Shown: positions 4,406 through 37,058 of the stretch, in pieces | How positions within the stretch are numbered: the first letter of the stretch is position 1 | Layout: each line of letters starts with the position of its first letter | Virus record (IMG/VR): IMGVR_UViG_3300042338_000452 | Span: 1 to 39,042 of that record | Reading direction: 5' to 3' (one strand) | DNA from: a virus | DNA length: 39,042 bases | The notes under the pieces: generated by a model | What the model was told of the DNA's origin: nothing | What the model saw: only the letters and a program-made list of their open reading frames with translations | Database searches by the model: none | Made by a program: the position numbers and the translations under genes

Positions 4406-4425
4406 GGAAACCAACGCACAAGACC
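4406..4425 (+). repeat. Dispersed 20-bp repeat, copy 1 (candidate late promoter)
   Basis: This is an exact copy of GGAAACCAACGCACAAGACC, found four times in the window. It lies in the gap between the small membrane protein and the tail sheath gene, 29 nt before the sheath ATG. A TATTTT hexamer lies at 4443-4448, 17 nt downstream. Transcription from such a -10 would begin close to the ATG itself, so the message could be leaderless. With three flanking bases (AAG) it matches copy 3 over 23 nt. Confidence 0.9.
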
Positions 4426-4454
4426 AACCGGGGAGCTCCGCCTATTTTCCCGCC

Positions 4455-5960
4455 ATGCCAGACCAATTTCTCCACGGCGTCCAAGTCGTTGAAGTCACAA
4501 GCGGCGCGCGCCCAATCCGCACCGTGGAAACCGGTGTCATCGGGATCGTCGGCACCGCTCCAAACTCTGAAGCCGCTATTGCTGGCACGCTGACAATTGG
4601 CGCCGCTGCGACTAATGACGGCATCAAATTCACCGCCGCCACAGCGGGCCTGCTCGGGAATGATATTTCCGTCAGGATTTTCAACCCGGGCACAAACTCC
4701 GCCGCCCTCGCCGTGACGGTGGTGGGTAAGGCGATTTCCATTTCCCTTGCGACTAATGTGTCCGGGGTAGCGACGTCTACGGCCGCGCAGATCCTGACGG
4801 CCTATGCGCTCGTTTCAGCGGCCACAGCACTTGCCACAGCGGCGGCTGTCCCCGGCTCTTCCGGCGCTGGTGTATCTGCGACGTACGCAACGTCCTTCCT
4901 TTCCGGCGGTCTCGATGCAGCCTTCCCACTCAACACCCCCGTCCTCGTGGCGGCTGACCGCACCCTTGCTGCCCGACTCGGCCTCACTGGTACGCTCCCT
5001 AATGCGCTGGACGGTATTTTCGATCAGGTGGGAGCGGTCGTAGTGGTTGTTCGTGTGGCACAAAACACCACCGACGCCGACCCTGGCACGCTCACCAATG
5101 TGATCGGGACCGTTGATGGTTCCGGAAATTACACGGGAATGCAGGCGCTTCTGGCCACCGAGTCTATCCTGGGAGTTGTTCCGAAGGTGCTCATTGCGCC
5201 CGGGTTTACGCATCAGGCTGGTGGTCTCACTGCGCTGGTGTCGGTCGCCCAACGTCTCCGAGCAGTCATCGTCGCCGACGGCCCGAACACGACCGACGCG
5301 GCCGCTCAATCGTACGCTGGAAACTTCGGCTCAGACCGAATCTACCTGGTGGATCCGGGTGTTCAAATTGTGGGGCCGGACGGCGGCGTCGCGTTCGACT
5401 ACGCCTCGCCTCGTGTTGCTGGGTTGATCGCCAAAACGGACAACGAAAAGGGATTCTGGTGGTCGCCATCAAATCAGGAGATCCTGGGCATCACGGGCAC
5501 CAAGCGCGCTGTTGATTTCGTCCTGGGAGACACTTCCAGCCGGGCGAACATCCTCAACTCCCAGAATATCACCACCATCATCCGCCAGAACGGGTACCGT
5601 CTCTGGGGGAACCGGTCGCTCTCGAGCGACCCGAAATTCGCGTTCCTGAGTGTTCGCCGAACGGCCGACGCCATCAATGAATCGATCCTGCGCGCTCACC
5701 TGTGGGCCGTAGATCGGAACATCGTTAAGACGTACCTCGAGGACGTGACCGCTTCCGTGAACGGATACCTCCGCTCCCTGCAGGCGCTTGGAGCAATCCT
5801 CGGGGGCGAGTGCTGGCCTGACCCTGATCTGAACAGCCCGGCGAACATCACGCAGGGGAAGGTCTACTTCAATTTCAAGTTCACCCCGCCGTATCCCGCC
5901 GAAAATGTGACGTTCCGGTCCATGCTCGTGAACGACTACCTCACCGACCTCGTCTCCTAA
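4455..5960 (+). CDS. Contractile tail sheath protein (P2 FI-like)
   Basis: This 501-residue protein is a P2 FI-type sheath subunit. The start (FLHGVQVVEVTSGARPIRTV), the FPLNTPVLV motif near 157-165, the DYASPRVAGLIAKTDNEKGFWWSPSN region and the C-terminal LEDVTASVNGYLRSL segment are family landmarks. The sheath contracts to drive the tube into the cell. P2 FI is about 396 residues. The extra length is one block at about residues 45-153, inserted exactly between TAPNSEAA and FPLNTPVLV, with its own strands (GNDISVRIFNPGTNSAALAV, ISLATNVSGVATSTAAQIL). That is an add-on surface domain. The gene opens the sheath-tube block and is preceded by repeat copy 1; no Shine-Dalgarno site is present. Confidence 0.95.
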   Translation: MPDQFLHGVQVVEVTSGARPIRTVETGVIGIVGTAPNSEAAIAGTLTIGAAATNDGIKFTAATAGLLGNDISVRIFNPGTNSAALAVTVVGKAISISLATNVSGVATSTAAQILTAYALVSAATALATAAAVPGSSGAGVSATYATSFLSGGLDAAFPLNTPVLVAADRTLAARLGLTGTLPNALDGIFDQVGAVVVVVRVAQNTTDADPGTLTNVIGTVDGSGNYTGMQALLATESILGVVPKVLIAPGFTHQAGGLTALVSVAQRLRAVIVADGPNTTDAAAQSYAGNFGSDRIYLVDPGVQIVGPDGGVAFDYASPRVAGLIAKTDNEKGFWWSPSNQEILGITGTKRAVDFVLGDTSSRANILNSQNITTIIRQNGYRLWGNRSLSSDPKFAFLSVRRTADAINESILRAHLWAVDRNIVKTYLEDVTASVNGYLRSLQALGAILGGECWPDPDLNSPANITQGKVYFNFKFTPPYPAENVTFRSMLVNDYLTDLVS

Positions 5961-5964
5961 TCCT

Positions 5965-6474
5965 ATGAGCGCTGCTTCTCAAATTTTCAAAAACTTCGCG
6001 CTCTACATTGATGGGCGCGGCTACGCTGGCAACGTGGACGAGGTCCAGCTCCCTGACCTGAAAGTCAAACTGGAGGAGTACCGCGCGGGCGGGATGGACT
6101 CGTCCATCGGGCTCGATATGGGCATGGAGAAGATGGAGGCGTCCTTCAAACTTTCCAAGTACGACGCCGACGTCCTTGCCCTTTGGGGTATGGGGCCAAG
6201 CCGCACGATACAATTGACGTTGCGTGGGGCGCTGGAGTCGCTGGACGGATCCGTGTCAAACCTCGTGGTAAACCTCGAGGGCACAATCGACACGATGACG
6301 CCGGACGCACTCACGCCCGGCGCAAAAGCGGGTCTCTCCGCGACGATGAGTGTTTGGCACTACAAAAACTCAATCAACGGCGTGGTGGTCCACGACATCG
6401 ACGTGATCAATATGGTGCGCATCGTGGGCGGGGTGGATCGCCTGGCGAAGATTCGCACGGCTCTCGGAATGTAA
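5965..6474 (+). CDS. Major tail tube protein (P2 FII-like)
   Basis: This 169-residue protein, the usual length for P2 FII, forms the inner tube of the contractile tail. Recognisable segments are FKNFALYIDGRGYAGNVDEV at the start, MDSSIGLDMGMEKMEASF near residue 45, and HYKNSINGVVVHDIDVINM followed by a short helical tail near the end. It starts 4 nt after the sheath stop (TAATCCTATGAG) with no Shine-Dalgarno sequence, suggesting reinitiation after the sheath gene. Confidence 0.95.
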   Translation: MSAASQIFKNFALYIDGRGYAGNVDEVQLPDLKVKLEEYRAGGMDSSIGLDMGMEKMEASFKLSKYDADVLALWGMGPSRTIQLTLRGALESLDGSVSNLVVNLEGTIDTMTPDALTPGAKAGLSATMSVWHYKNSINGVVVHDIDVINMVRIVGGVDRLAKIRTALGM

Positions 6475-6478
6475 TTCT

Positions 6479-6718
6479 ATGGAAACCGTAAAACTTGATT
6501 ATCCCATCACCGTAAATGGAGCGACGATCGCCTCTGTGGCGCTGCGCCGACCAAAGGTCTCTGATGAGCTGGCAGCAAAGAAGCTCACCTCGGATGACGC
6601 TATGTACGAGGTGACGCTCATCGCTAATCTCACGGAGCTGGCGCCCGAGGACATCCTCAAGATGGATTCAAGCGACTTCCGTAAGTTGCTGAAGGTGTTC
6701 ACTTCTTTTTTCGCCTAG
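6479..6718 (+). CDS. Tail assembly chaperone gpE-like
   Basis: This 79-residue protein belongs to the P2 gpE / Mu gp41 tail assembly family. It opens METVKLDYPITVNGATIASV and continues with VALRRPKVSDELAAKK, typical of the family, and ends in the helical segment SDFRKLLKVFTSFFA. It acts during tail assembly with the tape measure protein and is not expected in the virion. It lies between the tube and tape measure genes, as in P2. A slippery heptamer near its end (6706-6712) allows a longer fused product, described separately. Confidence 0.9.
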   Translation: METVKLDYPITVNGATIASVALRRPKVSDELAAKKLTSDDAMYEVTLIANLTELAPEDILKMDSSDFRKLLKVFTSFFA

Positions 6719-6849
6719 AGCGGGAGGATTGTCGGAGGGCCGTCCTGTATCTGGCCAACTACACGGGCTGGTCGCTCTCCGAGATTTCGGAGATGCCCGT
6801 GACTGATTTTGTGGAGTGGGTAACAGCCATCCCTAAACCGACATCCTAA
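6479..6849 (+). CDS. gpE-E' frameshift product (-1)
   Basis: A -1 shift at T TTT TTC (6706-6712) moves ribosomes into an open frame from 6712 (CGC, CTA, GAG) to the TAA at 6847-6849. The product has 123 residues, 78 from E plus 45 new. The new part contains AVLYLANYTGWSLSEISEMP and DFVEWVTAIPKP, which matches the P2 GpE' pattern of a W-S-E-(I/L)-M-P-(L/V)-F-W helix motif. No ATG opens this frame near its start, so the 130-bp stretch between gpE and the tape measure is explained only by frameshifting. P2 uses the closely related T TTT TTG. Confidence 0.85.
6706..6712 (+). promoter_or_regulatory. -1 ribosomal slippery site TTTTTTC
   Basis: In the gpE frame the codons are TCT TTT TTC GCC TAG. 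The last T of TCT with TTT and TTC forms the classic X XXY YYZ heptamer, six bases before the zero-frame stop. Both tRNAs can re-pair after a one-base slip. The site is in the same place as the known P2 E/E' shift. Confidence 0.85.
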
Positions 6850-6852
6850 CGC

Positions 6853-8760
6853 ATGAGTATAAAGAATTACGCGGCGCAGATCGTATTCGGAGCCAAGCAG
6901 GACAGCTCCGTCGGAAGCACGATTGGCAGGCTCAGAAGCGAGATCACCAGCATCGGCACGACGATTGCAGCGCAACGGAGGTCACTGGCGGATATAGGCG
7001 GACTAAGGGCCGGGCAGACAAGGGTTAGTCAGGCGCAAGAGTGGCTGAGGGGCGAGCAGATGCGACTGCAGAGCGTCCGCAGAGAGGGGTCCTCTCGGGA
7101 TATTCGGCAGGCGGAGCAGGGTGTCCGGCGGGCAACCACAGAGCTAACGCGGCAACGCACCGCGCTGATTGCGCTCGGGGCGGCAGCGCGCGCAGCCGGC
7201 GTTGATACGTCACGCCTAGCAGAGGAGGAGCGGCGTCTTGGAGACTCGATCGCGGCGCTCGGAACGCGGCAGGCAGGACTGACTGAAACGCACGCGGCTC
7301 ACCAGCGACTAGGGGAATCAATAGCGAACCTGCGCATGAGGTTCGGCGCGGCCGGCGCGGCTTTTGTAAATGACAGCAAGAGGATGGCCGTTGGTATTGG
7401 CGGGATCGCCGCGGCAGCCGGTGTCGCATCGCTCGCGATTGGCGGGCTCGTGAAATCCGTGGTAGACGACGCGGATAATGTGGCCGACACGGCGGATGCG
7501 CTCGGTATTACGACGGCGGCGCTCCAGACGTGGCAGTATGCTGCGAGCACGGTCGGTGTGGACGCGGAAAAGCTGGGGGCGTCGTTTGCGAAGTATCAGA
7601 AGGGCATTGAGGAGGGCAGCGACAAGACACTGAAGGTGCTCGGTGAGCTGGGGATCAGTCATGCAAGCTTGGCACAGCAGCCACTCGGCAGGCAGCTTCT
7701 GATAATTTCGGAGGCCCTGAAGAACTACAAGGGCTCGATGTCAGAGGCGGCGATTGTGCAAACCCTGATGGGCAAGGGGGCGTACAAGCTCACGACCGTA
7801 ATGAAGACCGGGGTGGAAGGCTTGAATAAGCTCCATCTACAGGGCGTTGCCGCCGGATCAGTCTTAACCAAGGAGCAGCTCGGTGTCGTTGATGAGGCAG
7901 CCTCCGCCTTCGACTATCTCGGTGCCACCGCAAAGGGGCTCAAAAACTCATTGGGTATCGCGCTCGCTCCGGCCGTCTCCGAGCTGGCGACGGCGTTCAC
8001 CGATCTCATCAGTGGCAATCGTGGGCAAATCACAGAGTGGGCAAGGCAGTTAGGGGAGACGATCCGGAAAGACCTGGTCCCTCAGGTGCAGGTGCTGATT
8101 ACGGACTTCCCTCGCGTAACCAAGGCCATTGGGGAGACTGCTTCTAAAATCTGGAGTGGAATCACAGCAGTCAAAAATTTCGTGGGCGGCTGGGATAACC
8201 TGGGGATTGCGTTGTTGGCGCTAAATTTCGCCCCAACGATCGCGTCCCTCGGATCTCTCTTATTGTCGCTAGGTCCGGTTGGACTGGCAGTGGGAGCGCT
8301 CGCTGCTGGCGTTGTGCTGCTCGGAGAAAATCAGGACATGGTGCTGGGTAAGGTGACGGATTTCACAAAGACCGTTTCTGGCGCACTGGAGGGCCTCGGG
8401 ACCACAATGAAGGGTGCGCTGGATCCTGCTTTCCGCTGGATCGGGGAGCAGTTTGACTGGATGGCGTCCAAGCTCGACGGCATCCGTGCGCTAGGAGGAA
8501 AGATCCGCGACGCGTTCACCCCGGTCAACACAACCGGGACGGCGAGCTTGCAGCCGAGCGAGGTGTCGACGGACGGAATGGCTCAGCTCATGCCTCAGGG
8601 CACATTGCAGAGCACAATTTCCGGCCGGGCTCCGCAGACGAACAATTTCAATATTACCGTTCCCGCCGTCCAGGACGGCACGGATTTCGCGGGCAAGTTC
8701 CGCGACTCGCTGAAGCAGAAGCCGCTATTCGATGAATTCGGTGTACTTGCCCCCAACTGA
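6853..8760 (+). CDS. Tape measure protein (P2 T-like)
   Basis: This 635-residue protein follows gpE' by 3 nt, the fixed position of the tape measure. Residues 10-160 are helical and charged with coiled-coil character (RLRSEITSIGTTIAAQRRSL and similar). A hydrophobic, Ala/Gly-rich segment lies near residues 178-202. Next comes a conserved tail-length region (DALGITTAALQTWQYAASTV), and a second hydrophobic stretch lies near 450-497. It sets tail length and helps DNA cross the membrane. P2 gpT is about 815 residues, so this tail should be shorter than P2's if length scales as usual. The last residues (NNFNITVPAVQDG) are typical of this family. Confidence 0.9.
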   Translation: MSIKNYAAQIVFGAKQDSSVGSTIGRLRSEITSIGTTIAAQRRSLADIGGLRAGQTRVSQAQEWLRGEQMRLQSVRREGSSRDIRQAEQGVRRATTELTRQRTALIALGAAARAAGVDTSRLAEEERRLGDSIAALGTRQAGLTETHAAHQRLGESIANLRMRFGAAGAAFVNDSKRMAVGIGGIAAAAGVASLAIGGLVKSVVDDADNVADTADALGITTAALQTWQYAASTVGVDAEKLGASFAKYQKGIEEGSDKTLKVLGELGISHASLAQQPLGRQLLIISEALKNYKGSMSEAAIVQTLMGKGAYKLTTVMKTGVEGLNKLHLQGVAAGSVLTKEQLGVVDEAASAFDYLGATAKGLKNSLGIALAPAVSELATAFTDLISGNRGQITEWARQLGETIRKDLVPQVQVLITDFPRVTKAIGETASKIWSGITAVKNFVGGWDNLGIALLALNFAPTIASLGSLLLSLGPVGLAVGALAAGVVLLGENQDMVLGKVTDFTKTVSGALEGLGTTMKGALDPAFRWIGEQFDWMASKLDGIRALGGKIRDAFTPVNTTGTASLQPSEVSTDGMAQLMPQGTLQSTISGRAPQTNNFNITVPAVQDGTDFAGKFRDSLKQKPLFDEFGVLAPN

Positions 8761-8762
8761 TT

Positions 8763-9206
8763 ATGGGCGTCCAAATGATACTCGGGTTTTTCCCGTTCAT
8801 GATCTCGACGGCGGCCTACGAGGAGCTGACCGAGACAACGACCTACCAGTGGCCAGAGCAACAGCCGATCGGGCAGGCACCGGTGCTCCAGTACGTGGGG
8901 CCGGGATCGCCTACGATAACGCTGAGGGGGAGACTGATCCCACCTCTCACCGGGACCCGGGTAAATCTGCGCCGCCTCCGATCGATGGCGGAGCTTGGAA
9001 TACCGTACATACTGATAGCCGGCACAGGGCTGGTACTCGGTCGCTGGGTAATTGAGGAGATTACCGACACTGGGAGATGTCATGCGCCGAACGGCGCGCC
9101 AAGAATCGACGAGTTCTCAATACGGCTCAAGAAAGCCGACGACGGCCTCAATAAGCTGACCAAGCTTCTCAGTGCGGCGTCTAAATTCGTGGGGCTTGTA
9201 AAATGA
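8763..9206 (+). CDS. Tail protein U (P2 gpU-like)
   Basis: This 147-residue protein lies directly after the tape measure, as gpU does in P2. Family features are the GFFPFMISTAAYEEL start, TYQWPEQQPIG, PTITLRGRLIPPLTG near residue 55, and a basic helical end. It is thought to act at tail completion and in joining the tape measure and hub. The ATG at 8763 follows the upstream stop by 2 nt; an alternative ATG at 8775 (MILGFF) aligns better with P2-type starts. It overlaps gpX by 4 nt (ATGA). Confidence 0.88.
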   Translation: MGVQMILGFFPFMISTAAYEELTETTTYQWPEQQPIGQAPVLQYVGPGSPTITLRGRLIPPLTGTRVNLRRLRSMAELGIPYILIAGTGLVLGRWVIEEITDTGRCHAPNGAPRIDEFSIRLKKADDGLNKLTKLLSAASKFVGLVK

Positions 9207-9409
9207 ACTACCTATCACGCGAGGGGCAGACCATAGACGAGATCGTGTGGCAGGCGCTGGGCACCGCTGACAACCGGGTGGTGGAGATCACCTACGAGCT
9301 TAACCAGAACCTGGCCAAGCGCGGGGAGACACTGCCCGCCGGCGTGCTGGTGCGGCTCCCAGACGACACACAGGTGACACCTCAACCGCGCGTTGCGCTT
9401 TGGGACTGA
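9203..9409 (+). CDS. Tail protein X (P2 gpX-like, LysM-like)
   Basis: This 68-residue protein is the size of P2 gpX. It contains the small LysM-like fold pattern of the family: REGQTIDEIVWQALG at the start, VVEITYELNQNLAKRGETLP in the middle, and the closing strand AGVLVRLPD. It sits between U and D as in P2 and is needed for hub and baseplate assembly. Start and stop overlap both neighbours (ATGA at 9203; TGATG at 9407-9411), which couples the three genes. Confidence 0.9.
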   Translation: MNYLSREGQTIDEIVWQALGTADNRVVEITYELNQNLAKRGETLPAGVLVRLPDDTQVTPQPRVALWD

Positions 9410-10203
9410 TGCTCGAATCATTCCTTGCCAGCAAAGTGTCCAAAGGGCCGCGATGTAAGGTTATCGCGAACGGGACCGATATTACGGTGCTGTTCCAGCG
9501 CACGATCGTCAGCATTGAGTGCGCCCAGAGCGTGGACGAAAACTCGGACGGCCTAACACTGACCCTGCAGGATGTCGCAAAGGAGATTCCGATTCCAAAG
9601 CGAGGGGCACGCCTGGAGGTGTGGCTTGGGTACGGCGAGAAGCTTCAAAATGTCGGGTCCTACGTGGTGGATCAGGTGGACATATCAAATCCGCCAAACC
9701 AGATCCGGATCACCGGGACCTCTACTCCGTTCACGGCGGACGCTTTTGGTGGGCAGCCGTCTATGATCACCCGTCGCTCTCAGTCGTACGATGGTAAAAC
9801 CTTGGGTGAAATCGTGGCTACGATCGCAAAACGCAACAATCTCACGCCGGTCGTGCAGGAGGAGCTGGCTGGGGTGGTGTTCGAGCACATCGACCAGGTG
9901 GACGAGTCAGACACGAATTTTCTCCTCCGGATCGCCCGTGACGTTGGTGGGATACTGACGCCGATGGACTCAAAACTCGTCCTGGTCGACGAGCGTGGAG
10001 GTAAAACCGCCACCGGAAAACCACTCGACGCGGTCCAGTTGGAGGAGTCGCAGGTTACCTCTTGGCGCGTTTCGCTCGGGACGAAGTTAAACGAGGCAAA
10101 GAAATGCGAGGCGAAGTACCACGATTACAATGAATGTGAGACCAAAGTGGCGGCTTCCGATATTCCAAAAAATGAGATCTGGAAGGCTTCAGGGGAGGAT
10201 TAA
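9409..10203 (+). CDS. Baseplate hub protein D, N-terminal part
   Basis: These 264 residues match the N-terminal two thirds of the P2 gpD hub (late control D family, gp27-like). Landmarks are the start (SKGPRCKVIANGTDIT), the EIPIPKRGARLEVWLGYGE strand near residue 65, a DGKTLGEIVATIAKRNNL helix near 130, and DESDTNFLLRIARDVGGIL near 170. It ends at KASGED with TAA, where full-length homologues continue. The missing C-terminal third is the next ORF. I chose ATG 9409, which overlaps the gpX stop, over an upstream TTG at 9400. The protein forms the ring at the centre of the baseplate that holds the spike. Confidence 0.85.
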   Translation: MLESFLASKVSKGPRCKVIANGTDITVLFQRTIVSIECAQSVDENSDGLTLTLQDVAKEIPIPKRGARLEVWLGYGEKLQNVGSYVVDQVDISNPPNQIRITGTSTPFTADAFGGQPSMITRRSQSYDGKTLGEIVATIAKRNNLTPVVQEELAGVVFEHIDQVDESDTNFLLRIARDVGGILTPMDSKLVLVDERGGKTATGKPLDAVQLEESQVTSWRVSLGTKLNEAKKCEAKYHDYNECETKVAASDIPKNEIWKASGED

Positions 10204-10205
10204 CC

Positions 10206-11151: not shown

Positions 11152-11152
11152 T

Positions 11153-11383: not shown

Positions 11384-11398
11384 AATTTTAAGAAGGTT

Positions 11399-13809: not shown

Positions 13810-13812
13810 ATC

Positions 13813-23698: not shown

Positions 23699-24040
23699 AT
23701 ATGAACTCTGCAAAGTCTGCACGGTCTGCAAATCAAGTCTGCAAGGGAAAGTGTTCATCGGTGGTTACTTGCGCTAAAGTCTGCAAAGTCTGCAAATTTT
23801 AGAAGTCCCCTCACATTCCGCACATGAGCGGGTGCGCAAGTGCGCCTGCGCTCGCGTGTGCGCGGGGAATAATAATAATTTAATAGGTAATAGATTTATT
23901 TATTATTTAGGGGAACGTAAGTCCTTGAGGCTGAGGGGGTTGCGAAGTCTGCAAGTGTGTCTGCAGCCGGTGCAGTGCAGAGCAGAGTTTGCAGACTAAT
24001 TGGGCTTAGCTGCCTGCACGCTGACAGCGTTGCACTTACA
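23699..24040. other. Putative replication origin: iteron-like repeats and AT-rich tract
   Basis: This 342-bp non-coding region follows the primase-helicase. It contains nine copies of the core TCTGCA (often AAGTCTGCAA): starts at 23707, 23716, 23725, 23738, 23780, 23789, 23948 and 23960 on plus, and an inverted copy (TTTGCAGACT) at 23988-23997. Within clusters they are spaced exactly 9 bp. A GC-rich stretch with repeated TGCGC (23833-23864) borders a 42-bp tract with only three G and no C (23868-23909), which fits a DNA unwinding element. The alternative is a cosB-like terminase binding region. Confidence 0.6.
23868..23909. other. AT-rich tract, candidate DNA unwinding element
   Basis: This 42-bp run has only three G and no C in an otherwise GC-rich genome. 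It lies between two clusters of TCTGCA repeats. Such asymmetric AT-rich tracts next to iterons are the usual sites of first strand opening. Confidence 0.6.
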
Positions 24041-24550
24041 ATGAATCCACGGGGTTTGATGGGATTCTGTTGCGGTTTTCGGGGACCGTGTCCAAACACC
24101 AGCAGGGTGCGCGCTCACCTCCACCCGCTTCCTCCGACTGCTCAGGCGGTCGCTGACGTCATCGGCGAAGATCTCACGCTCAGGCTCTGCTCACTGCATG
24201 AGTCACAACGGCGATACATCCCAAAGAGCGTATCGATCCATCACCCTGGTGCTCGGGCCATCGGTGTGGACCAGTGGCAACGCATCGTTCGCCACTTCGG
24301 AGGAGAGCTCATTGATCTGCCGTCCTGCGCTCGTGCTGCCCGTCAGCGGGCGATCAAGGCGCAGTTGGCCGCAGGTATGCCGCCGGACGCTGTGGCGGCC
24401 CATTACGGCCTGTCTCGTCGCCGCATCAGCCAGATCCTTCGGTCTCTCAGGTCGGCGCAGGCGACTGCCGAGCCTCCACCCACCCCCGGTCTTGGGTCCT
24501 CCCGGCGGGGGGCTCCTGCGGGTGAGAAGGAAATCTCAGAGGAAAACTAG
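24041..24550 (+). CDS. Mor/C-family transcription activator
   Basis: This protein of up to 169 residues matches the Mor family of phage Mu (Mor and C). It has an AVADVIGEDLTLRLCSLHESQ helix, RRYIPKSVS strands, HPGARAIGVDQWQRIVRHFGGE, and a C-terminal helix-turn-helix in MPPDAVAAHYGLSRRRISQI. Mor and C activate Mu middle and late promoters that lack a proper -35 box. The gene stands between the origin and the packaging genes, the right place for a late-gene switch. The start is uncertain: ATG 24041 or GTG 24107, the latter nearer the conserved domain. The last 25 residues are Pro/Gly-rich and variable. Confidence 0.75.
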   Translation: MNPRGLMGFCCGFRGPCPNTSRVRAHLHPLPPTAQAVADVIGEDLTLRLCSLHESQRRYIPKSVSIHHPGARAIGVDQWQRIVRHFGGELIDLPSCARAARQRAIKAQLAAGMPPDAVAAHYGLSRRRISQILRSLRSAQATAEPPPTPGLGSSRRGAPAGEKEISEEN

Positions 24551-25180: not shown

Positions 25181-27026
25181 CGAGGCATCAGCGGAGCCAG
25201 GCGGTTGGGATACCTCCCGAGCGGAATACCAGCGCGGGATCATGGACGCGTGCGCGTCCGGCCTGAGCAGCGTCGTGATCATGTCGAGCGCACAGATCGG
25301 AAAGACCGAGATCCTGAACAACATCCTCGGCTACTACATCGACTACCAGCCGTGCTCGATCCTCGTGGTTCAGCCGAACCTGCAGGCCGCTCAAATGTGG
25401 AGCAAGGAACGCCTGGCGCCAATGATTCGCGACACGCCGGCGCTTCGGCAAAAGGTGTCTGACGTGAAGGCGCGGGACTCCTCGAACACGATTCTTCAGA
25501 AGCAATTCCCGGGCGGATACGTGGCGGTTACCGGGGCAGAGTCACCGGCCGGGCTGTGTTCGCGGCCCGTCCGTGTGCTGCTTATGGACGAGGTGGACCG
25601 GTACCCGGACAGTGCCGGAACGGAAGGCGATCCAGTGGATCTGGCCACGGCTCGAACCAAAAACTTCTGGAACCGCCTGATTATTGCGACCTCCACGCCA
25701 ACCGTGAAGGGGTTCTCGCGAATCGAGAAAGCGTTCCTGGAATCCGATCAGCGGCACTACTTCATTCCGTGCCCGCGCTGCGGAGAGGCGCATGTCCTGA
25801 AGTGGGGGAACATCGTTTGGGGTGAACGCACCCCTGCCAAAGGTGACCCGAGGAAGGCCGTGTTCCAGTGTCCGCACTGCTCGGGCTTCTTTTCAAACGG
25901 CGAGAAAAACGCGGCAGTCCGAATCGCGCCCAACGTCGGAGCGGGATGGAGAGCCACGGCACCATTCACAGGGAAGCCGGGCTTCCACATCTGGGAGGCG
26001 TACTCCCCCTGGCGCGAACTGTGGCAGATCGTCGAATCGTTCCTTGCCGCAAAGGGCGACCCGCAACGCCTCAAGACGTGGGTGAACACTACCCTCGGCG
26101 AAACGTGGGAAGACGCCGGTGAGGTCGTCCACGACCACGAGCTCCAGGAGCGTTGCGAGACCTACGCCGCGCCGGTGCCCGCTCGAGCGCTTTACCTGAC
26201 GGCCGGCGTCGACACCCAGCCGGACCGCTTGGAGGTGGAGGTCGTTGGCTGGGGGAAGGGCGAGGAGTCCTGGTCGATCGATCACCACGTAATCTACGGA
26301 GATCCGGACATCAAAGAGGGTACGCCTGGCAGCCCTTGGGACACGCTTACCGATTACATCCGGCGGGTGTGGCAACACGAGAGCGGCGCGGAGGTTTCGG
26401 TATCCCACACGATGATCGACTCGGGCGGTCACAATACGACGGCGGTCTACGAATACTGCAAGCGCCACAAGGGCGATCGGATCTACCCCATCAAGGGGAA
26501 GGGCGGCGACCTGCCGATTGTCGGTGGACGCCAGCGCACGAAGACCGGCAAGAGCGTACGGCCCGTGGACCTGTTCATTGTGGGGGTAGACAATGGAAAG
26601 CACGCGGTGATGAACCGTCTCCGGATCAAAGACCCAGGCCCCGGGTACTGTCATTTCCCACAGGGGCGCGATCCGGAGTGGTTCCGGCAGCTCACCTCCG
26701 AGAAGTTGGTGACGTCGTACAAAAAGGGCCGCCCCTCTCGCAAGTGGGAGCTGCAGTCCGGCCGTCGCAACGAAGCGCTGGATTGCCGGGTTTACGCGTA
26801 CGCGGCGTTCCTGGTGGGGGCTCCACAACTCGACAAGGTGGCGTTTCGCCTGAAGGCGGACGCCGCGCGCCGGGGGCCGCTTGTGGTGACGAAGCCTTCC
26901 GCCGACCCCACTCCGGCACCCGAAGAGGAAACCAACGCACAAGACCCCGAACCGTCAGAGCCTATTGTCAGAGCGCGACCTGCCCGCCCAAAACGGCGAG
27001 GCGGGTACGTATCTGCATGGCGCTAA
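25071..27026 (+). CDS. Terminase large subunit (lambda GpA family)
   Basis: This 651-residue protein is a GpA-family packaging motor and nuclease. Features in order: RPNLTVSQWADRFRQLSSEA near residue 25; a Walker A-like SSAQIGKTE near 78; Walker B VLLMDEVDRYP near 170; a zinc-binding pair CPRCGE and CPHCSG near 235-270; and the RNase H-like nuclease with GVDTQPDRLEVEVVGW near 380, MIDSGGHNTTAVYEY near 450 and NEALDCRVYAYAAF near 565. GpA terminases cut at cos sites. The start overlaps the small-subunit gene by 110 bp; GTG 25143 would shorten the overlap but lose part of the usual N-terminus. The C-terminal tail (after 600) is Pro/Glu-rich and encodes repeat copy 2. Confidence 0.93.
   Translation: MLDESLTRTFRRLANLLTPRPNLTVSQWADRFRQLSSEASAEPGGWDTSRAEYQRGIMDACASGLSSVVIMSSAQIGKTEILNNILGYYIDYQPCSILVVQPNLQAAQMWSKERLAPMIRDTPALRQKVSDVKARDSSNTILQKQFPGGYVAVTGAESPAGLCSRPVRVLLMDEVDRYPDSAGTEGDPVDLATARTKNFWNRLIIATSTPTVKGFSRIEKAFLESDQRHYFIPCPRCGEAHVLKWGNIVWGERTPAKGDPRKAVFQCPHCSGFFSNGEKNAAVRIAPNVGAGWRATAPFTGKPGFHIWEAYSPWRELWQIVESFLAAKGDPQRLKTWVNTTLGETWEDAGEVVHDHELQERCETYAAPVPARALYLTAGVDTQPDRLEVEVVGWGKGEESWSIDHHVIYGDPDIKEGTPGSPWDTLTDYIRRVWQHESGAEVSVSHTMIDSGGHNTTAVYEYCKRHKGDRIYPIKGKGGDLPIVGGRQRTKTGKSVRPVDLFIVGVDNGKHAVMNRLRIKDPGPGYCHFPQGRDPEWFRQLTSEKLVTSYKKGRPSRKWELQSGRRNEALDCRVYAYAAFLVGAPQLDKVAFRLKADAARRGPLVVTKPSADPTPAPEEETNAQDPEPSEPIVRARPARPKRRGGYVSAWR
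26927..26946 (+). repeat. Dispersed 20-bp repeat, copy 2 (inside terminase gene)
   Basis: This exact copy of GGAAACCAACGCACAAGACC lies in the variable C-terminal tail of the terminase gene and is read as E-E-T-N-A-Q-D-P. A TATTGT hexamer follows at 26963-26968, 16 nt downstream. The next gene starts 70 nt after the repeat. Copy 3 encodes a different peptide, so the DNA sequence is what is conserved. Confidence 0.9.
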
Positions 27027-27513: not shown

Positions 27514-29061
27514 ATGGGCTTCCTCTCGAATATCTTCGGGCGCACCCCGGCAGCTCCCACTAAGGCTCCATCTCGAAAGATGGGCCGTATGCTACCGCAG
27601 GCCGCCGGTACCGGGCGACTTGAGGACACCTGGGCAACATTTCCGACCACGGTCGACGCGCTGATTTACCACCACTGGCGAACCATCGTGACCCGCTCGC
27701 GAGAGCAGGGAGAAAACAATGATTACGCCCGCAAGTTTCTGCAGATGGTCCGCGATAACATCGCAGGCCCTACTGGGTTTGAGCTCCAGGCGAAGGTGAA
27801 GGATCCCACTGGGACTCCGGATTTGCTGGCAAGTAAGGCGTTGGAGACCGCGTGGGACGAGTTCTCTAAAAAAGGCAACTACGAGGTGAGCGGCGCGATG
27901 TCGCGAGCCGACGTGGAGCGCCTTTTGGTCTCAACCGTGGCCACCGACGGGGAAGCCTTTGCAATCAAAGTGGGCGGCTCTGATGCTGGTCCGTACGGGT
28001 TCGGGATGCAGCTCATGGATCCGATACTGTGCAACCCACAGCACTTCGAGAAGCTGCCCAACGGAAACCACATCCGGCACGGAATCGAGATGAACGCCTT
28101 CGGGCGGCCGGTTGCGTACTACTTCCAAGAATTTACAGAACAGCAGGTTGGGTACATCCAATACTCCACGGCCACAGCGCGCCGGGTGCCGGCCGACAGG
28201 GTCGTTCATTTGTTCATCCCTGAAAAGATCGGCCAGAAGCGCGGCCTTCCATGGATGCGAACAGCCCTCTGGAAAATGCGGATGCTGTCCGGATTCGAAG
28301 ATGCCGCGATCACCAACGCACGCGTGGGCGCGGCGAAGATGGGATTCTTCCGCGATCCATCGGCTGAAGGGGACAACGACGAGCCGATCACCATGGACGC
28401 TGAGGCGGGGGTGTTCGAGGACATCGGCAACCGGGAGCTCGTGCAGTGGAACCCGCAGTTTCCGTCGGGGGATTTTGCTCCTTTTGTCACTGAGATGCTT
28501 CGTTCGATCAGCTCGGGGCTGGGAGTGTCCTACAACAACCTTGCGAGCGATCTGACGGCGGTGAATTTCAGCTCGATCCGGCAGGGTGCGCTGGACGAGC
28601 GGGAGGTTTGGAAGGGGTTGCAGAATTGGTTTATCTCCGCATGGTGCATGCCGGTTTACGAGACGTGGCTCGAAAGGGCGCTTCTGTCTCAGAAGGTCTC
28701 GGTAAACGGCCGACCCCTGAAGTTTGAGCGGCTTGAGAAATACAAGCAGGTTGGTTTTCAGGGCCGTCGGTGGGCGTGGATCGATCCGAAGAGCGAGGTT
28801 GCGGCGCAACAGATTGCGATCGCGGCAAGGCTCACATCTCGCTCTGCCTGTATCCGTGATGGTGGAGGGGATCCAGAGGATGTGTTCGAAGAGATCGCCC
28901 GGGAAGAGGTCGAGATGGAGCGCCTAGACATTATGCCGATCGCGATGCCTGGCTCGCCAGTACCGACGGAGTCACCAGCGGATGAGGGCGACGATGACGT
29001 TGCGCCTGCTGCAAAACCCAAGCCGCCGGCCAAAGGGAAACCAACGCACAAGACCGACTAA
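27514..29061 (+). CDS. Portal protein (lambda portal family)
   Basis: This 515-residue protein is a lambda gpB-family portal: THE core has REQGENNDYARKFLQMVRDN near residue 65, IRHGIEMNAFGRPVAYYF near 185, VHLFIPEKIGQKRGLPWM near 230, a DAAITNARVGAAKMGFF segment near 263 and GVSYNNLASDLTAVNFSSIR near 337. It forms the dodecameric ring through which DNA enters. The C-terminal 40 residues are Pro/Lys/Asp-rich, and their last codons lie in repeat copy 3. The start follows the junction TAACCATG, the same as between the two gpD parts. Confidence 0.92.
   Translation: MGFLSNIFGRTPAAPTKAPSRKMGRMLPQAAGTGRLEDTWATFPTTVDALIYHHWRTIVTRSREQGENNDYARKFLQMVRDNIAGPTGFELQAKVKDPTGTPDLLASKALETAWDEFSKKGNYEVSGAMSRADVERLLVSTVATDGEAFAIKVGGSDAGPYGFGMQLMDPILCNPQHFEKLPNGNHIRHGIEMNAFGRPVAYYFQEFTEQQVGYIQYSTATARRVPADRVVHLFIPEKIGQKRGLPWMRTALWKMRMLSGFEDAAITNARVGAAKMGFFRDPSAEGDNDEPITMDAEAGVFEDIGNRELVQWNPQFPSGDFAPFVTEMLRSISSGLGVSYNNLASDLTAVNFSSIRQGALDEREVWKGLQNWFISAWCMPVYETWLERALLSQKVSVNGRPLKFERLEKYKQVGFQGRRWAWIDPKSEVAAQQIAIAARLTSRSACIRDGGGDPEDVFEEIAREEVEMERLDIMPIAMPGSPVPTESPADEGDDDVAPAAKPKPPAKGKPTHKTD
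29036..29055 (+). repeat. Dispersed 20-bp repeat, copy 3 (portal 3' end)
   Basis: This exact copy of GGAAACCAACGCACAAGACC overlaps the last codons of the portal gene, where it reads K-P-T-H-K-T, a different frame from copy 2. It ends 31 nt before the ATG of the protease-capsid gene. At the 16-17 nt position where the other copies have TATNNT, this copy has none; a TATGAG overlaps the start codon instead. Confidence 0.9.
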
Positions 29062-29086
29062 CTGTCGCGTGGCAGGCTCGACCCGT

Positions 29087-31078
29087 ATGAGTGCAGCCAA
29101 ACGTTCACCACGCGACCTAATCGGAACGGCACAATGCCGCTCCAGTCGCGTGTATGGCGGGCTCACTCCAAAGCGTGAAGCGCTGTCGCCAGCAGAACTG
29201 ATCGGCTCCGAGCATCGCCGCTCGATGAGCATCGAGTCTGCTGACGTGCAGGATCGGACACTCGAGTTATCCTTTTCATCCGAGATCGAGCTCGAGCTTT
29301 ATCCTGGCTTGATTGAGGTGCTCTCGCACGAGACCTCAGCCGTGGATCTCACGCGCCTGAACAACAGTGCGCCGTTACTTTTCAACCATGACCTCGACCA
29401 GCCTATCGGCGTCATTGAGTCAGCAAGCATTGGGGCAGACCGGAAGGGGCGCGCGGTTGTGCGTTTTGGCCTGACGGACGAAGCCAAGGCCGCGCTGACC
29501 AATGTTCAGGACGGCATCCTGAAGAACGTGTCCGTTGGTTACAGGATTCTGGCGGTTGAGAAGACCGCAACCCGTGAAAGCGGAGCGGAAGTGTGGACGG
29601 TGACACGGTGGCAACCCTACGAGGTCAGCATCGTGACAGTTCCGGCGGACACAACCGTCGGAGTGGGCCGTTCTCTCGAATCGAAACCACGCATCCCTCA
29701 AAAGTCTCAAATTATGACAAGAGCACAACTTATCGCGCTTCTGACGAAACGCGGAATCACCGTTTCCGACACCACCTCCGATGAAGAATTGGTCCGCCTG
29801 GTGGAGTCCGGAGAAACTAAAATCGACGTAGTGGGCGAGCGCGCCGCTGCACAAACCGCCGAGCGCGACCGCGTCCGGAGCATCCTTAGTGCTGGAGAGC
29901 AGTACAAGGAGCCGGAGCTTGCCCGGGGATTCGCCGAAAGCGGCAAGTCCGTGGAAGAGTTCCGGGCTGAATTGCTCAAAAAGGTAGACGCTCGCAACCG
30001 TGCGATCGCTGATGCCACAAAGCCTATTGGCTTGAGCGAGATGGAGGCGAAATCGTTTTCGTTCATCCGCCTGATGCGCGCTATGTGCGCCGAGGTGGGT
30101 GAACAAGTGAAGCTTCGCGAAGAGGCCAAGTTCGAGCTCGAAGCCTGCGAAGCCGCCGGTCAACGGATGCACCGTCCCACCCAGGGTATGGTGATCCCGA
30201 TCGACGCGCTAATGCAGCGCGCCGGGGCAAACACCACCTCGATCGCTTCCGGAGCCGGCTACAGCGGCACCGGTGGCGCCACAGTTGCCACTGACCTGCT
30301 CGCCGGATCGTTTATCGACATCCTGCGCAACAAGACAGTGCTCATGCAGCTCGCGACCCAGCTGGCGGGCCTCGTCGGCAACGTGGACATCCCTCGCCAG
30401 ACCGACACGACTGGTGCGACGTGGGTTGGCGAAGATGTGGCCGCGACCAAGTCGGCCCTCAACTTCGGCCTGGTGTCGCTTCGTCCGAAGACAATCACGA
30501 CCTTCGGACAGGTTACTCGCCGGATGCTCAAACAGAACTCGGTTGGCGTGGAGGCTCTGTTCCGGAACGACCTCGCGATGACGATTGCCCGTGGAATCGA
30601 CACCGCTGGTTTTTACGGCACCGGATCCGCCAACGATCCTACCGGGATCAAGAACATCGGCGGCATCCACAGCACAACTTTCGCCGTGGCCGGGAAACCG
30701 ACCTACGCGGAGCTGGTGGCTCAGGAGACTGCGATCTCTCAGCTGAACGCCGACGTCGCCTCCATGGCGTATGTCGTCAACCCGTCTACACGGGGTTACG
30801 CGAAGACGACCAGGAAGATCACGACGTCCACCAGTGACGCTACCATTTGGGAACCCGGCGGCACGCTCAACGGCTACCGCACGGAAGTCACCAACCAGAT
30901 CACCGCTGGCGACGTGTTCTTCGCGAATTTCGCGGACTTCATCATCGGCCTGTGGGGCGGTCTCGAGGTGACGGTCGATCCTTATTCGATCAGCACCCAG
31001 GGCGGCATCAAGGTTGTGTTGTTCCAGGACGTGGACATGGCGGTCCGCCGTGCCGCTTCGTTCGCGTACGGCGCATAA
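29087..31078 (+). CDS. Prohead protease-major capsid fusion (HK97-type)
   Basis: This 663-residue protein joins two usually separate genes. Residues 50-200 are an HK97-type (U35/S78) prohead protease, with the probable catalytic His in LLFNHDLDQPIG near residue 100 and Ser in ILKNVSVGYRI near 148. From about residue 210 a helical scaffold-like delta region (MTRAQLIALLTKRGITVSD) leads to the capsid domain from about 370: GAGYSGTGGATVATDLLAGS, IPRQTDTTGATWVGEDVAAT, LRPKTITTFGQVTRRMLKQ and a C-terminal VLFQDVDMAVRRAASFAYG. The protease presumably releases the capsid domain during maturation. An in-frame ATG at 29714 could give capsid without protease. A terminator follows. Confidence 0.9.
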   Translation: MSAAKRSPRDLIGTAQCRSSRVYGGLTPKREALSPAELIGSEHRRSMSIESADVQDRTLELSFSSEIELELYPGLIEVLSHETSAVDLTRLNNSAPLLFNHDLDQPIGVIESASIGADRKGRAVVRFGLTDEAKAALTNVQDGILKNVSVGYRILAVEKTATRESGAEVWTVTRWQPYEVSIVTVPADTTVGVGRSLESKPRIPQKSQIMTRAQLIALLTKRGITVSDTTSDEELVRLVESGETKIDVVGERAAAQTAERDRVRSILSAGEQYKEPELARGFAESGKSVEEFRAELLKKVDARNRAIADATKPIGLSEMEAKSFSFIRLMRAMCAEVGEQVKLREEAKFELEACEAAGQRMHRPTQGMVIPIDALMQRAGANTTSIASGAGYSGTGGATVATDLLAGSFIDILRNKTVLMQLATQLAGLVGNVDIPRQTDTTGATWVGEDVAATKSALNFGLVSLRPKTITTFGQVTRRMLKQNSVGVEALFRNDLAMTIARGIDTAGFYGTGSANDPTGIKNIGGIHSTTFAVAGKPTYAELVAQETAISQLNADVASMAYVVNPSTRGYAKTTRKITTSTSDATIWEPGGTLNGYRTEVTNQITAGDVFFANFADFIIGLWGGLEVTVDPYSISTQGGIKVVLFQDVDMAVRRAASFAYGA

Positions 31079-31102
31079 ACAATTGGTGGGTTTGGGTTAT
31101 CG

Positions 31103-31139: not shown

Positions 31140-31148
31140 ATTAAAATC

Positions 31149-31343
31149 ATGAAAGTCCGCATTCTGAAAAGTATCCGCCTGGGTGGCGAACACGTTCCAA
31201 TTGGAGCCACGGCAGAAGTGTCAGACACTCTCGGCGCCGAGCTGATCCACTGCGGGCAGGCCGAAGAAGCGCCGCTGGAAGTGGCTGAGATCACTCCTGA
31301 GCCGGAGCAACCGGTGGCTCCCTCCAAAAAGGCGACCAAATGA
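31149..31343 (+). CDS. Small capsid-associated protein
   Basis: This 64-residue protein starts MKVRILKSIRLGGEHVPIGA and continues TAEVSDTLGAELIHCGQAE, a short SH3-like pattern (V-x-x-L-K-x-I-x-x-GG-x-x-x-x-x-G) often found just after phage capsid genes. The tail is Pro/Glu/Lys-rich. Its role is not established; position suggests head completion or decoration. ATG 31149 lies 10 bp after the terminator T-run, so it may need read-through or its own promoter. Confidence 0.6.
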   Translation: MKVRILKSIRLGGEHVPIGATAEVSDTLGAELIHCGQAEEAPLEVAEITPEPEQPVAPSKKATK

Positions 31344-31639
31344 ACGGAGCACGCCCTAACCCATCGCAGGCGCACGTCGCGCTATCTGTTGGCGCAACAG
31401 CGCAAACACTTTCAGAGCTCGGATATACACCAGAGCTTAGAACGGCTCTGGTACAGCTTTACGTAGAAGGCGGATCCGTCCGCGTGACAGTGAACGGAAC
31501 CGCGCCCACGACCACTCTAGGCGTATTGTGGAAAGACGGAACTCTTTGGGAAATGGGGATTATTGAGGCTTCGGTCGCAAAATTTATCTTGGAGAGCGGA
31601 CAACCCGCGAAGCTTCAGGTGCTGGCTTTTACCGCTTAA
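31340..31639 (+). CDS. Putative head decoration or structural protein
   Basis: This 99-residue protein is beta-rich: HVALSVGATAQTLSELGYTP, LVQLYVEGGSVRVTVNGTAP and AKFILESGQPAKLQVLAFTA. The alternating pattern and small size suit a decoration or fibre-anchor protein. It overlaps the upstream gene by ATGA and precedes the very large structural gene by 3 nt, so it may be its adaptor. The family is not recognised. Confidence 0.45.
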   Translation: MNGARPNPSQAHVALSVGATAQTLSELGYTPELRTALVQLYVEGGSVRVTVNGTAPTTTLGVLWKDGTLWEMGIIEASVAKFILESGQPAKLQVLAFTA

Positions 31640-31642
31640 AAA

Positions 31643-34324: not shown

Positions 34325-34327
34325 TGC

Positions 34328-34501
34328 ATGAGCGAGAGCTTCGAGTTGGGACCGGTAAACGAGGACGGCACCCGCACGATGACAGTGCTGGGCGTCGCCT
34401 TTCAAATCTCGGCCCAGTCGCTACCGGACGAGACGTGGGCGATAAAACTTCAAGCAAAGGCGGACGCCTGGGCAAAATCACTACTAGCACTGAATGACTG
34501 A
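34328..34501 (+). CDS. Small hypothetical protein, 57 residues
   Basis: This 57-residue ORF (MSESFELGPVNEDGTRTMTV to WAKSLLALND) fills the gap between the large structural protein and the FII-like gene, which it overlaps by 8 bp. An overlapping frame from ATG 34324 is also open but gives an unusual Arg/Gly-rich peptide, so I prefer 34328. The C-terminal helix (ETWAIKLQAKADAWAKSLL) is amphipathic. Function is unknown. Confidence 0.5.
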   Translation: MSESFELGPVNEDGTRTMTVLGVAFQISAQSLPDETWAIKLQAKADAWAKSLLALND

Positions 34502-34784
34502 AAATCTCTCAGTGTTTTTCACCGGCCTCGACGCCGTGCAGGTGACCTTCGACACGTCGCCTGCACGCGTTGTGTCCGGCTATTTCGACAACGCGTTCGT
34601 CGACGCAAATCTAGGCGAGACGATCATGGATACCACGCAGCCGCGTATCGCGTGCAAGGCGGCGGATGTGGCCGGGATCCCGCGCGGAACGATGGCGACC
34701 ATTGGAGATCAAAGCTTTTCCGTGGTGCAGATCCAACCCGAAGGGACAGGGCTTGCGACCGTGACCTTTGCGCATGAGGACTGA
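34494..34784 (+). CDS. Head-tail joining protein (lambda FII-like)
   Basis: This 96-residue protein has the size and position of lambda gpFII. It shows the small beta-barrel pattern VFFTGLDAVQVTFDTSPARV, TTQPRIACKAADVAGIPRGT and DQSFSVVQIQPEGTGLATVT; the QPEG-T-G closing strand is typical. It should form the ring where the tail docks on the head. It overlaps the next gene by 11 bp. Confidence 0.7.
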   Translation: MTENLSVFFTGLDAVQVTFDTSPARVVSGYFDNAFVDANLGETIMDTTQPRIACKAADVAGIPRGTMATIGDQSFSVVQIQPEGTGLATVTFAHED

Positions 34785-35373
34785 CGAATCAGCCACATTC
34801 CGCGCAGCGACCGGGCTTTTTGACCTCAGCGCTGATGTGGCGTTTGGTGGGATTGCTGAGACGCTGGGCCTGACTGAGGAGCAGATCCGAAAGGCAGCGA
34901 AGACGGCAGCATCGAAGGCGGGACGGTGGGCAGAACGCGAAGGATCAAAGGAGCTCGCGAAAATTAGCCACCTGAGCATTCGCGACCTCAGGGAAGCCAC
35001 AAGGTTTCGCATGAAGCCGACAAAGAAACGCGGCGCGGGTATTCCGGGCGTGCGTGTCTGGTTCGGCTTGAACGACATTCCCGCAAAGCTGCAGGATCCG
35101 AGGCAGACGCCCTCAGGCGTGGCTACGTCCGCCGCTGAATATCCGGGGGCATTCATCTCGGAGAAACTTGGCGGGCATGTATTCAAGCGCCGGGGGCGTA
35201 CGCGTCTAAAAATCGACAAGGTCACCTATTCAATCGCGACCTCGATGGAGGCAGCAGTTCAGGACGTTGCGACGCGCGCGGGATCTGTCTACGTCGACGA
35301 ATTTTTCAAGGCCCTGGACAAGGCAGGGGGCAAAGAGTCCGGCTACACACAACGAACCCTCAGTGCATTATGA
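34774..35373 (+). CDS. Minor tail protein Z-like
   Basis: This 199-residue protein follows FII, as lambda gpZ does. The N-terminal helices (EEQIRKAAKTAASKAGRWAE) and the middle region (LSIRDLREATRFRMKPTKKR, VWFGLNDIPAKLQ, PGAFISEKLGGHVFKRRG) match the Z family, with its helix, an I-P strand and a G-AF-I turn followed by VF-R-x-G. It is needed for joining tails to heads. ATG 34774 is chosen over TTG 34768. Confidence 0.72.
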   Translation: MRTDESATFRAATGLFDLSADVAFGGIAETLGLTEEQIRKAAKTAASKAGRWAEREGSKELAKISHLSIRDLREATRFRMKPTKKRGAGIPGVRVWFGLNDIPAKLQDPRQTPSGVATSAAEYPGAFISEKLGGHVFKRRGRTRLKIDKVTYSIATSMEAAVQDVATRAGSVYVDEFFKALDKAGGKESGYTQRTLSAL

Positions 35374-35906
35374 GTGACGAGCTCCCAGAAGTTGACGTGG
35401 AGGCGCTCCACGAGGCGATAAAAGCCGCGATCGAGGACGAGTTTCCTGCGCTTGCGTCGGTGGATTACTATCCTCGCCCTGGTGAGAAGATTGCCACCCC
35501 GGCGGTCTTTCTGGAGTTGGACTCCATCGACCCGGATGGCGAAATAACGCCCGGCACCGAGCAGACATCTGTGACGCTCCGGTTCGCGGCGTACTGCGTC
35601 CACGACTACCGGACAGGGAACAAGCTCGCGGTCCGGTTGCTGGCGACAGCGCTCATAGGCCTGATCGACTCGAACCGGTGGGGGCAACCAGTGGGCGGCG
35701 CGGATTTCACTGGGTGCGTACCGGACAAGATGCGGGTCGAGGGAAATAAGGAATACGAGGTGATGCGGATCGAATGGACGCACGAAGCGCTCCTTGGAAC
35801 GAACATCTGGGAGGATCCAGGCGCAGGGCCGACGCAGGTGTTCGTATCGGAGGCTCCGGCCATCGGGATCCCGCACGCGCCCGCTTACACGGAGGTCACG
35901 CCATGA
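35370..35906 (+). CDS. Putative tail terminator / tail completion protein
   Basis: This 178-residue protein starts with helices (EVDVEALHEAIKAAIEDEFP) and a strand-rich middle (KIATPAVFLELDSIDPDGE, TSVTLRFAAYCVHDYRTGNK), then VRLLATALIGLIDSNRWGQP. The order, a helix, a F-L-x-x-x-x-I strand, a long L-helix ending in W-G, and a W-x-x-E strand, resembles tail terminator and Mu gp37-like (DUF1834) proteins. Its position between Z and V fits. It overlaps both neighbours by 4 nt. Confidence 0.55.
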   Translation: MSDELPEVDVEALHEAIKAAIEDEFPALASVDYYPRPGEKIATPAVFLELDSIDPDGEITPGTEQTSVTLRFAAYCVHDYRTGNKLAVRLLATALIGLIDSNRWGQPVGGADFTGCVPDKMRVEGNKEYEVMRIEWTHEALLGTNIWEDPGAGPTQVFVSEAPAIGIPHAPAYTEVTP

Positions 35907-36571
35907 GTGCGGAGATTTCCGACCTGGTCAGGCGCATTGCAAACATCGTGAGGGTTGGCCGTGTGACACAGGTCGACTACGCCAACGTGCGCGTTAAGAT
36001 GCAGTTTGGCGCGAACGAGTCCGCCTGGGTGCCCTGGATGACCGGCCGGGCAGGCGCGACGAAGGACTGGAACCCGCCGGCTATCGGTGAACAGGTGGCC
36101 ATGTTGTCGCCCTCGGGGACGCTTGGCGCAGGGTTCATCCTCGCTGGCGCGATAAACTGGAATGATCACCCCGCACCCGGATCCGACGGGGATAATACCC
36201 ACCTACGATTCGCGGATGGCGGGACCATCAACTACAACGCCGCCTCGAGCGAATGCGCTGTGACGGTGCCAGCGGCCGGAAAGGTTCTTTTGACATGCGG
36301 TGCGGGTCAGATCGAGGCGACGAACGTGCACACAAAGTTGACGCTGGGGAGCACCTCGATCGAACTCACGGCTGCGGGGATCTCACTCACTGCGGGCGGG
36401 AAAACGATGACCATCAATTCCGGCGGGTGGAACATCAACGGGCCAGTGGTACAGACCGGCGGCGGCATCACCACCACAGGCGGCGACATCGTGGCCGACG
36501 GGAAATCGCTCAAGACGCACGTGCATGGCGGCGTCCAAGGCGGCGGTAGCAACACCGGGGTTCCGATTTAA
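35903..36571 (+). CDS. Baseplate spike protein (P2 gpV-like)
   Basis: This 222-residue protein is a P2 gpV-type central spike. Residues 1-90 form the OB-fold: IANIVRVGRVTQVDYANVRV, AWVPWMTGRAGATKDWNPPA and GEQVAMLSPSGTLGAGFIL. The C-terminal half is a repetitive beta-helix (SIELTAAGISLTAGGKTMTI, NSGGWNINGPVVQTGGGI). It ends with DGKSLKTHVHGGVQGG; THVHGG with nearby histidines suits the metal-binding needle tip. A good GGAGGT lies upstream. It begins the P2-like baseplate block. Confidence 0.9.
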   Translation: MSAEISDLVRRIANIVRVGRVTQVDYANVRVKMQFGANESAWVPWMTGRAGATKDWNPPAIGEQVAMLSPSGTLGAGFILAGAINWNDHPAPGSDGDNTHLRFADGGTINYNAASSECAVTVPAAGKVLLTCGAGQIEATNVHTKLTLGSTSIELTAAGISLTAGGKTMTINSGGWNINGPVVQTGGGITTTGGDIVADGKSLKTHVHGGVQGGGSNTGVPI

Positions 36572-36574
36572 TTT

Positions 36575-37039
36575 ATGGATACACGAAGCGAAAAGCACCT
36601 CTCCACCCTGCTCCCCGAGGTGCAGGCGAACTTCCGGGCGTTTGTTACCGAGGCGCAGGCGCTGGCGGCGTCCAAGGGGTACGAGTACAAGGTGATTTGT
36701 GGGACTCGCGACTGGGACGAACAGGCGCGGCTGTACGCGCAGGGACGGACTGCACCGGGTAAGATCGTGACCAAGGCACCTCCGGGCTCGAGCTTCCACA
36801 ATTTCGGCCTCGCGATTGATTGCGGCGTTTTCCGGGGTGGCAAATATCTGGATGAAGACGAGCCGATCACGGCGGCAAAGTTCCATCGGTTGGTCGCGCC
36901 GCTCGCAAAGGCGCGAAATCTCCGCTGGGGCGGTGATTTCAAGAGCATCGTGGATATGCCGCACTTCGAGTTTAACACGCCAGTAGGTCTCGCCGAGTTG
37001 CGCTCGCGTCGGCAACGCGAGGTGGCCCTGTTAGGCTAG
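36575..37039 (+). CDS. Endolysin, M15-type peptidase
   Basis: This 154-residue protein is an L-alanyl-D-glutamate/VanY-type (M15) peptidase. The sequence DWDEQARLYAQGRTAPG, then SFHNFGLAIDCGVF near residues 73-86, and DMPHFEF near 127-133 give the zinc ligands His-x6-Asp and His plus a catalytic Asp/Glu region. It should cut peptidoglycan stem peptides. No signal peptide is present, so release needs a holin. The gene lies between spike V and wedge W, unlike P2, where lysis genes lie after X. It might alternatively be a virion-borne wall hydrolase. Repeat copy 4 begins on the last base of its stop codon. Confidence 0.85.
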   Translation: MDTRSEKHLSTLLPEVQANFRAFVTEAQALAASKGYEYKVICGTRDWDEQARLYAQGRTAPGKIVTKAPPGSSFHNFGLAIDCGVFRGGKYLDEDEPITAAKFHRLVAPLAKARNLRWGGDFKSIVDMPHFEFNTPVGLAELRSRRQREVALLG

Positions 37040-37058
37040 GAAACCAACGCACAAGACC
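37039..37058 (+). repeat. Dispersed 20-bp repeat, copy 4 (candidate late promoter)
   Basis: This exact copy of GGAAACCAACGCACAAGACC lies between the endolysin and the baseplate wedge gene. A TATGGT hexamer lies at 37075-37080, 16 nt downstream, and the wedge ATG is 30 nt after the repeat. Transcription from this -10 would start within a few bases of the ATG. Confidence 0.9.

Follow-up and report, generated by a model that had tools for sequence, protein, structure and literature searches.

A repeated 20-bp element and the predicted activator-dependent late promoters of a contractile-tail phage group

The element and its four sites

Why does a phage genome carry the same 20 bp at four separate places among its late genes? 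The question is raised by the 39,042-nt IMG/VR record IMGVR_UViG_3300042338_000452, which was analysed over its whole length (positions 1 to 39,042, here called the window). GGAAACCAACGCACAAGACC occurs in four exact copies, all on the plus strand, where dinucleotide shuffles give a chance expectation of about 0.01. A search of both strands for exact copies and for copies with up to three mismatches returned no other site, and the original prediction, which had named these four, thus stands in this respect. It was also right that the reading frame differs between copies 2 and 3 (EETNAQDP in terminase, GKPTHKTD* in portal), that copies 1, 3 and 4 end 29, 31 and 30 nt upstream of the ATGs at 4455, 29087 and 37089, and that TATTTT, TATTGT and TATGGT lie 17, 16 and 16 nt 3' of copies 1, 2 and 4. 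Copy 3 has only CAGGCT in the -10 register. The features are the following (all plus strand).

4406-4425: element copy 1, flanked by the genes of a small membrane protein and of the tail sheath; predicted late promoter of the sheath operon (exact repeat; same site in related phages)
4443-4448: -10 hexamer TATTTT of copy 1, in fixed register; predicted +1 is the A of the sheath ATG
4455-5960: tail sheath gene (PF04984, phrog_23), predicted leaderless start, no Shine-Dalgarno sequence
23957-24550: gene of a Mor-like activator of late transcription, the candidate protein to bind the element (PF08765, 28.9 bits, cut-off 24.9; phrog_836, E 8.5e-23)
26927-26946: element copy 2, inside the gene for the terminase large subunit at its 3' end; the ATG of the following gene, at 27017, comes 70 nt later; predicted promoter for head-tail connector/portal genes (exact repeat; same place in G004, G005, G011, G012, ep3, Bas97 and PPpW-3)
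26963-26968: -10 hexamer TATTGT of copy 2; the predicted leader up to the 27017 ATG is about 41 nt
29036-29055: element copy 3, in the final codons of the portal gene; predicted promoter of the protease-capsid gene (exact repeat; homologous sites in G004, G005, G011 and G012)
29073-29078: CAGGCT, weak -10 candidate of copy 3, by register only
29087-31078: protease-major capsid gene (PF04586, PF05065), predicted (near-)leaderless start at offset +2 from the predicted +1
37039-37058: element copy 4, its first G shared with the endolysin stop codon; predicted promoter of the baseplate wedge gene (exact repeat; same place in related phages)
37064-37100: inverted repeat GGTGCTTCGC...GCGAGGCACC, 10 bp, around the -10 and the wedge start codon (z about -4 against shuffles)
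37075-37080: -10 hexamer TATGGT of copy 4
37089-37427: baseplate wedge gene (gp25/W; PF04965, phrog_43), predicted leaderless start MRGTDATTGKALSG at offset +1, no Shine-Dalgarno sequence

The two contig ends (1-121 and 38922-39042) form a 121-bp direct terminal repeat. With these 121 bases in common, the record probably represents a full circular genome, about 38.9 kb in length.

We regard it as highly probable (roughly 0.87) that the four copies are the activator-binding halves of late promoters, in a model whose other parts are a Mor-like activator, a -10 hexamer and, at the wedge gene (likewise at the sheath and protease-capsid genes in the clade of the window), a start codon at the predicted +1. 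A phage-encoded Mor-like activator, whose gene directly precedes the terminase genes, would bind the element at about -49 to -31, where it would replace the -35 hexamer. Host RNA polymerase of the sigma-70 type would then start from the -10 hexamer 17-19 nt beyond the element, and four late blocks would be switched on: connector/portal, protease-capsid, baseplate and sheath/tail. If the true 5' ends lie at the predicted +1, which coincides with the start codon, the wedge message would be leaderless, and in the clade of the window the sheath and protease-capsid messages as well.

Conservation, promoter geometry and start codons

The nearest sheath relatives in IMG/VR (57-75% identity) have a degenerate copy of the element upstream of sheath. 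In a core search of the sheath relatives' records, the longer ones contained four to five forward copies, and a reversed-pattern control in the same records gave none. The relatives' sites lie at the borders used in the window, i. e. at the terminase 3' end and at protease/capsid, baseplate wedge and sheath. Element, position and spacing to the -10 are all kept in related phages, and the kept position and spacing support the proposal of the original prediction that the element occupies the -35 region of activator-dependent promoters.

Within the clade of the window the right half of the element, GCACAAGAC, is constant. The left half differs between phages and is nearly identical among the copies within one phage, being GGAAACCAAC in the window, GGAAGCAACC with close variants in G004, GAAGAAAAC in G005, GGAAATCCCC in G007 and G017, and GCAAACGC in G011 and G012. 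The left halves of a phage thus change in concert, which suggests a trans-acting factor. Since the spelling differs from phage to phage, the exact 20-mer had no match in IMG/VR beyond the window. G011 (L092 11498) and, at the matching place, G012 have a fifth copy, absent from the window, before a short gene whose product starts MKLVQLLKSLL or MKIVQLLKSLL. A portal-based search for relatives returned nothing, megablast with the window's first 25 kb as query found no match in the phage collection, and a sheath search in Verrucomicrobiota found no close relative; the best sheath identity in a genome-contig scan was only about 64%.

In sheath-related prophages of alpha-, beta- and gammaproteobacteria, the region upstream of the sheath gene was compared with the remainder of the locus. 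This brought out related words that recur, among them GGAAAACCCGCCAGAGGAA, GGAAAACCCACAAGAGGAA, AACCCCGCCGCAGGAA and GAACCACTGCCAGCGGAG. All four places are also occupied by the element in the Pseudomonas phage PPpW-3 and in the E. coli phages ep3 and HeidiAbel (Bas97); in the Bas97 record its AAACCC stands at 2429, 5168, 9470 and 13926, and the wedge ATG at 9517. An E. coli K-12 strain whose O-antigen has been restored supports growth of Bas97 (PMC11990801), and with its four sites this phage makes the model testable in E. coli. In Bas97, ep3 and PPpW-3 one element is located inside the protease-capsid gene and is followed by a Shine-Dalgarno sequence and an in-frame ATG (L209 5168-5261; L208 9264-9354; L206 5381); this may be an internal promoter that makes free capsid protein.

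The geometry was derived from 62 deduplicated sites of the wider family, which were aligned on the element alone with no hexamer chosen. A -10 emerged 18 nt downstream of the element, with A at +19 in 57, T at +23 in 56 and G at +24 in 40 of the 62 sites. In the clade of the window the -10 has the same register with slight play (T in 18 of 22). This places the element at about -49 to -31, with its centre near -40. Judged by its sequence, the element together with a -10 at fixed distance is a promoter, and this is the central result of the analysis. The poor -10 of copy 3 speaks against it.

When the predicted +1 is placed seven bases after the -10, the start codon of the wedge gene (ATG or GTG) lies at an offset of -3 to +3, mostly 0 to +2, in all element-bearing phages listed, and nearly always has no Shine-Dalgarno sequence before it. 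Among 75 non-redundant wedge starts, a Shine-Dalgarno sequence was found in 0/33 with the element, a class that was completed by eye, versus 29/42 without it. A strict automatic class, trained on non-wedge sites, gave 0/23 versus 29/52, and a -10 was present in 22/23 versus 18/52. Hence the wedge transcript is predicted to begin at the start codon, with no ribosome-binding leader. Most sheath and protease-capsid starts in the clade of the window also coincide with the predicted +1 and are predicted to be leaderless; the exceptions are the sheath genes of G007 and G017, which start 10 and 18 nt downstream of it. Leaders of about 20-50 nt, most of them containing a Shine-Dalgarno sequence, follow the sheath and capsid promoters of the proteobacterial phages. 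At the other late gene starts of the window, a Shine-Dalgarno-like sequence occurs in only 5 of 21 (one of the 21 positions is off by one base), which suggests that the host of this phage makes little use of such sequences. Since they are rare in the genes of the window generally, their lack alone says little about leaderlessness in this clade. The start codons at the predicted +1 and the reach of the family into proteobacterial phages are new beyond the original prediction. For the wedge gene of PPpW-3, the annotated start lies 9 nt upstream of where the transcript is predicted to begin (L206 9744-9753); the next in-frame ATG is probably the real start, and the promoter model thus corrects gene starts such as this one.

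The candidate activator and other explanations

The activator gene of the window probably starts further downstream than 23957. Most of the complete element carriers tested encode such an activator. Of 32 records or genomes, 23 have a Mor-like protein of phrog_836, and several of the misses are partial contigs; the hits include the longer records G005, G012, G020, G022, G023, G025 and G026, and the match in G040 is weak. Activator and element are both present in ep3 and PPpW-3, and the Bas97 record annotates a late transcriptional activator. The relatives VHML, ZRG1 and AcaML1 have neither a Mor-like activator nor the element. A tblastn search with the activator in phages gave no match, and a search by sequence found no solved structure for it.

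To compare distances over 20 phages, the element spellings were entered by hand and end-anchored. Element distance correlated with activator distance at 0.75 and with sheath distance at 0.57. In partial Mantel tests the element-activator correlation given sheath was 0.61 (p 0.0002), and the element-sheath correlation given activator was 0.11 (p 0.22). The element spelling thus tracks the Mor-like protein, which strengthens the earlier proposal of this protein as the candidate ligand. Two loci, L114 and L059, have other Mor-like genes (for L059, in the record behind it) and quite different, palindromic words, AAGTGnAnnATTTCACCT and TGAAATTTTTCA, which are repeated at late promoters and centred near -44 (L114 663, 6904, 9921; L059 1454, 9914). 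Each has one case of an ATG directly after the -10.

The late promoters could be as described and yet be recognised by another phage factor, such as an Ogr-like activator or a sigma factor, while the role of the Mor-like protein would lie elsewhere. In favour of this, the element lacks the clean dyad of Mu Pm, and binding by the Mor-like protein is a candidate interaction only. We nevertheless consider this very unlikely, given the partial Mantel result and the relatives that lack element and Mor-like protein alike. Ogr-type activation in particular is not supported, as 0/5 phage records contained an Ogr/Delta zinc-finger activator.

Two other readings, already raised with the original prediction, do without a promoter. 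An RNA signal in late transcripts, i. e. a processing, antitermination or translation element, would agree with the constant orientation of the element along transcription and with its location near gene starts. However, a -10 at fixed spacing and a start codon at +1 would put the element outside its own transcript, its spelling tracks a DNA-binding protein, and the window contains no Rfam match (nor a tRNA), so that this reading is very improbable. Recombination linkers between gene modules would account for copies at module borders; yet each phage has one copy within the terminase coding sequence, and ep3, Bas97 and PPpW-3 have one within the protease-capsid gene, all copies of a phage change spelling together, and linkers have no need for a -10. 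We give them hardly any credence. Neither reading predicts a -10 at fixed distance or a start codon at +1, which the promoter reading does.

Relation to known systems and a hairpin at the wedge start

P2 and 186 are contractile-tail temperate phages whose dispersed late promoters depend on a phage activator, Ogr/Delta. The window phage resembles them in its dispersed late promoters, its contractile tail and temperate character and its candidate phage activator; it differs in the site and its position and in the lack of an Ogr family protein, as seen in five phages. In phage Mu, the 16-bp site bound by Mor has its centre at -43.5 and takes the place of the -35 (PMC4390567), and Mu C drives the four late promoters lys, I, P and mom (PMC4461284). 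As at Mu Pm, a Mor-family activator is encoded, a candidate activator site stands in place of the -35, and of the sigma-70 hexamers only the -10 is present. As with Mu C, a candidate activator of the Mor/C type would serve four dispersed late promoters. Unlike Pm, a single promoter with a 16-bp dyad, there are at least four late promoters with predicted leaderless starts, and the 19-20 bp site of the window and of the main family is asymmetric with its centre near -40; the window element is not a clear inverted repeat, unlike the Mu Mor site, which counts against the proposed model. Two relatives, L114 and L059, have palindromes near -44. Moreover, these are non-Mu phages with a lambda-type terminase, a tyrosine integrase, a different binding word and a wedge start at +1. 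Comparison of the sequences thus supports the view that the promoters of the window are a variant of Mu-type activator-dependent late promoters. They appear to be previously undescribed: a literature search, with most subscription journals outside its cover, found no paper describing these words or promoters.

With the model, late promoters can be recognised by a sequence code in a large and little-studied group of phages and prophages with contractile tails, whose hosts include alpha-, beta- and gammaproteobacteria. Each promoter code is paired with its candidate activator, which provides natural activator-promoter pairs for specificity studies. The model also predicts a conserved leaderless structural gene, which is unusual.

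A strong RNA hairpin across the wedge start was predicted for 10 of 33 wedge genes with the element versus 1 of 42 others (one-sided Fisher p 0.0008, with the threshold chosen after looking; rank test p 0.045). Its 5' arm is located upstream of +1, so the hairpin could arise in read-through RNA only. A possible, though rather doubtful, interpretation is that the wedge gene of a very wide phage group is translated only from its own activator-dependent leaderless transcript, and that in about one third of these phages, the window included, the hairpin hides the start codon in read-through RNA, so that promoter choice would gate translation. The wedge hairpin of the window is among the strongest.
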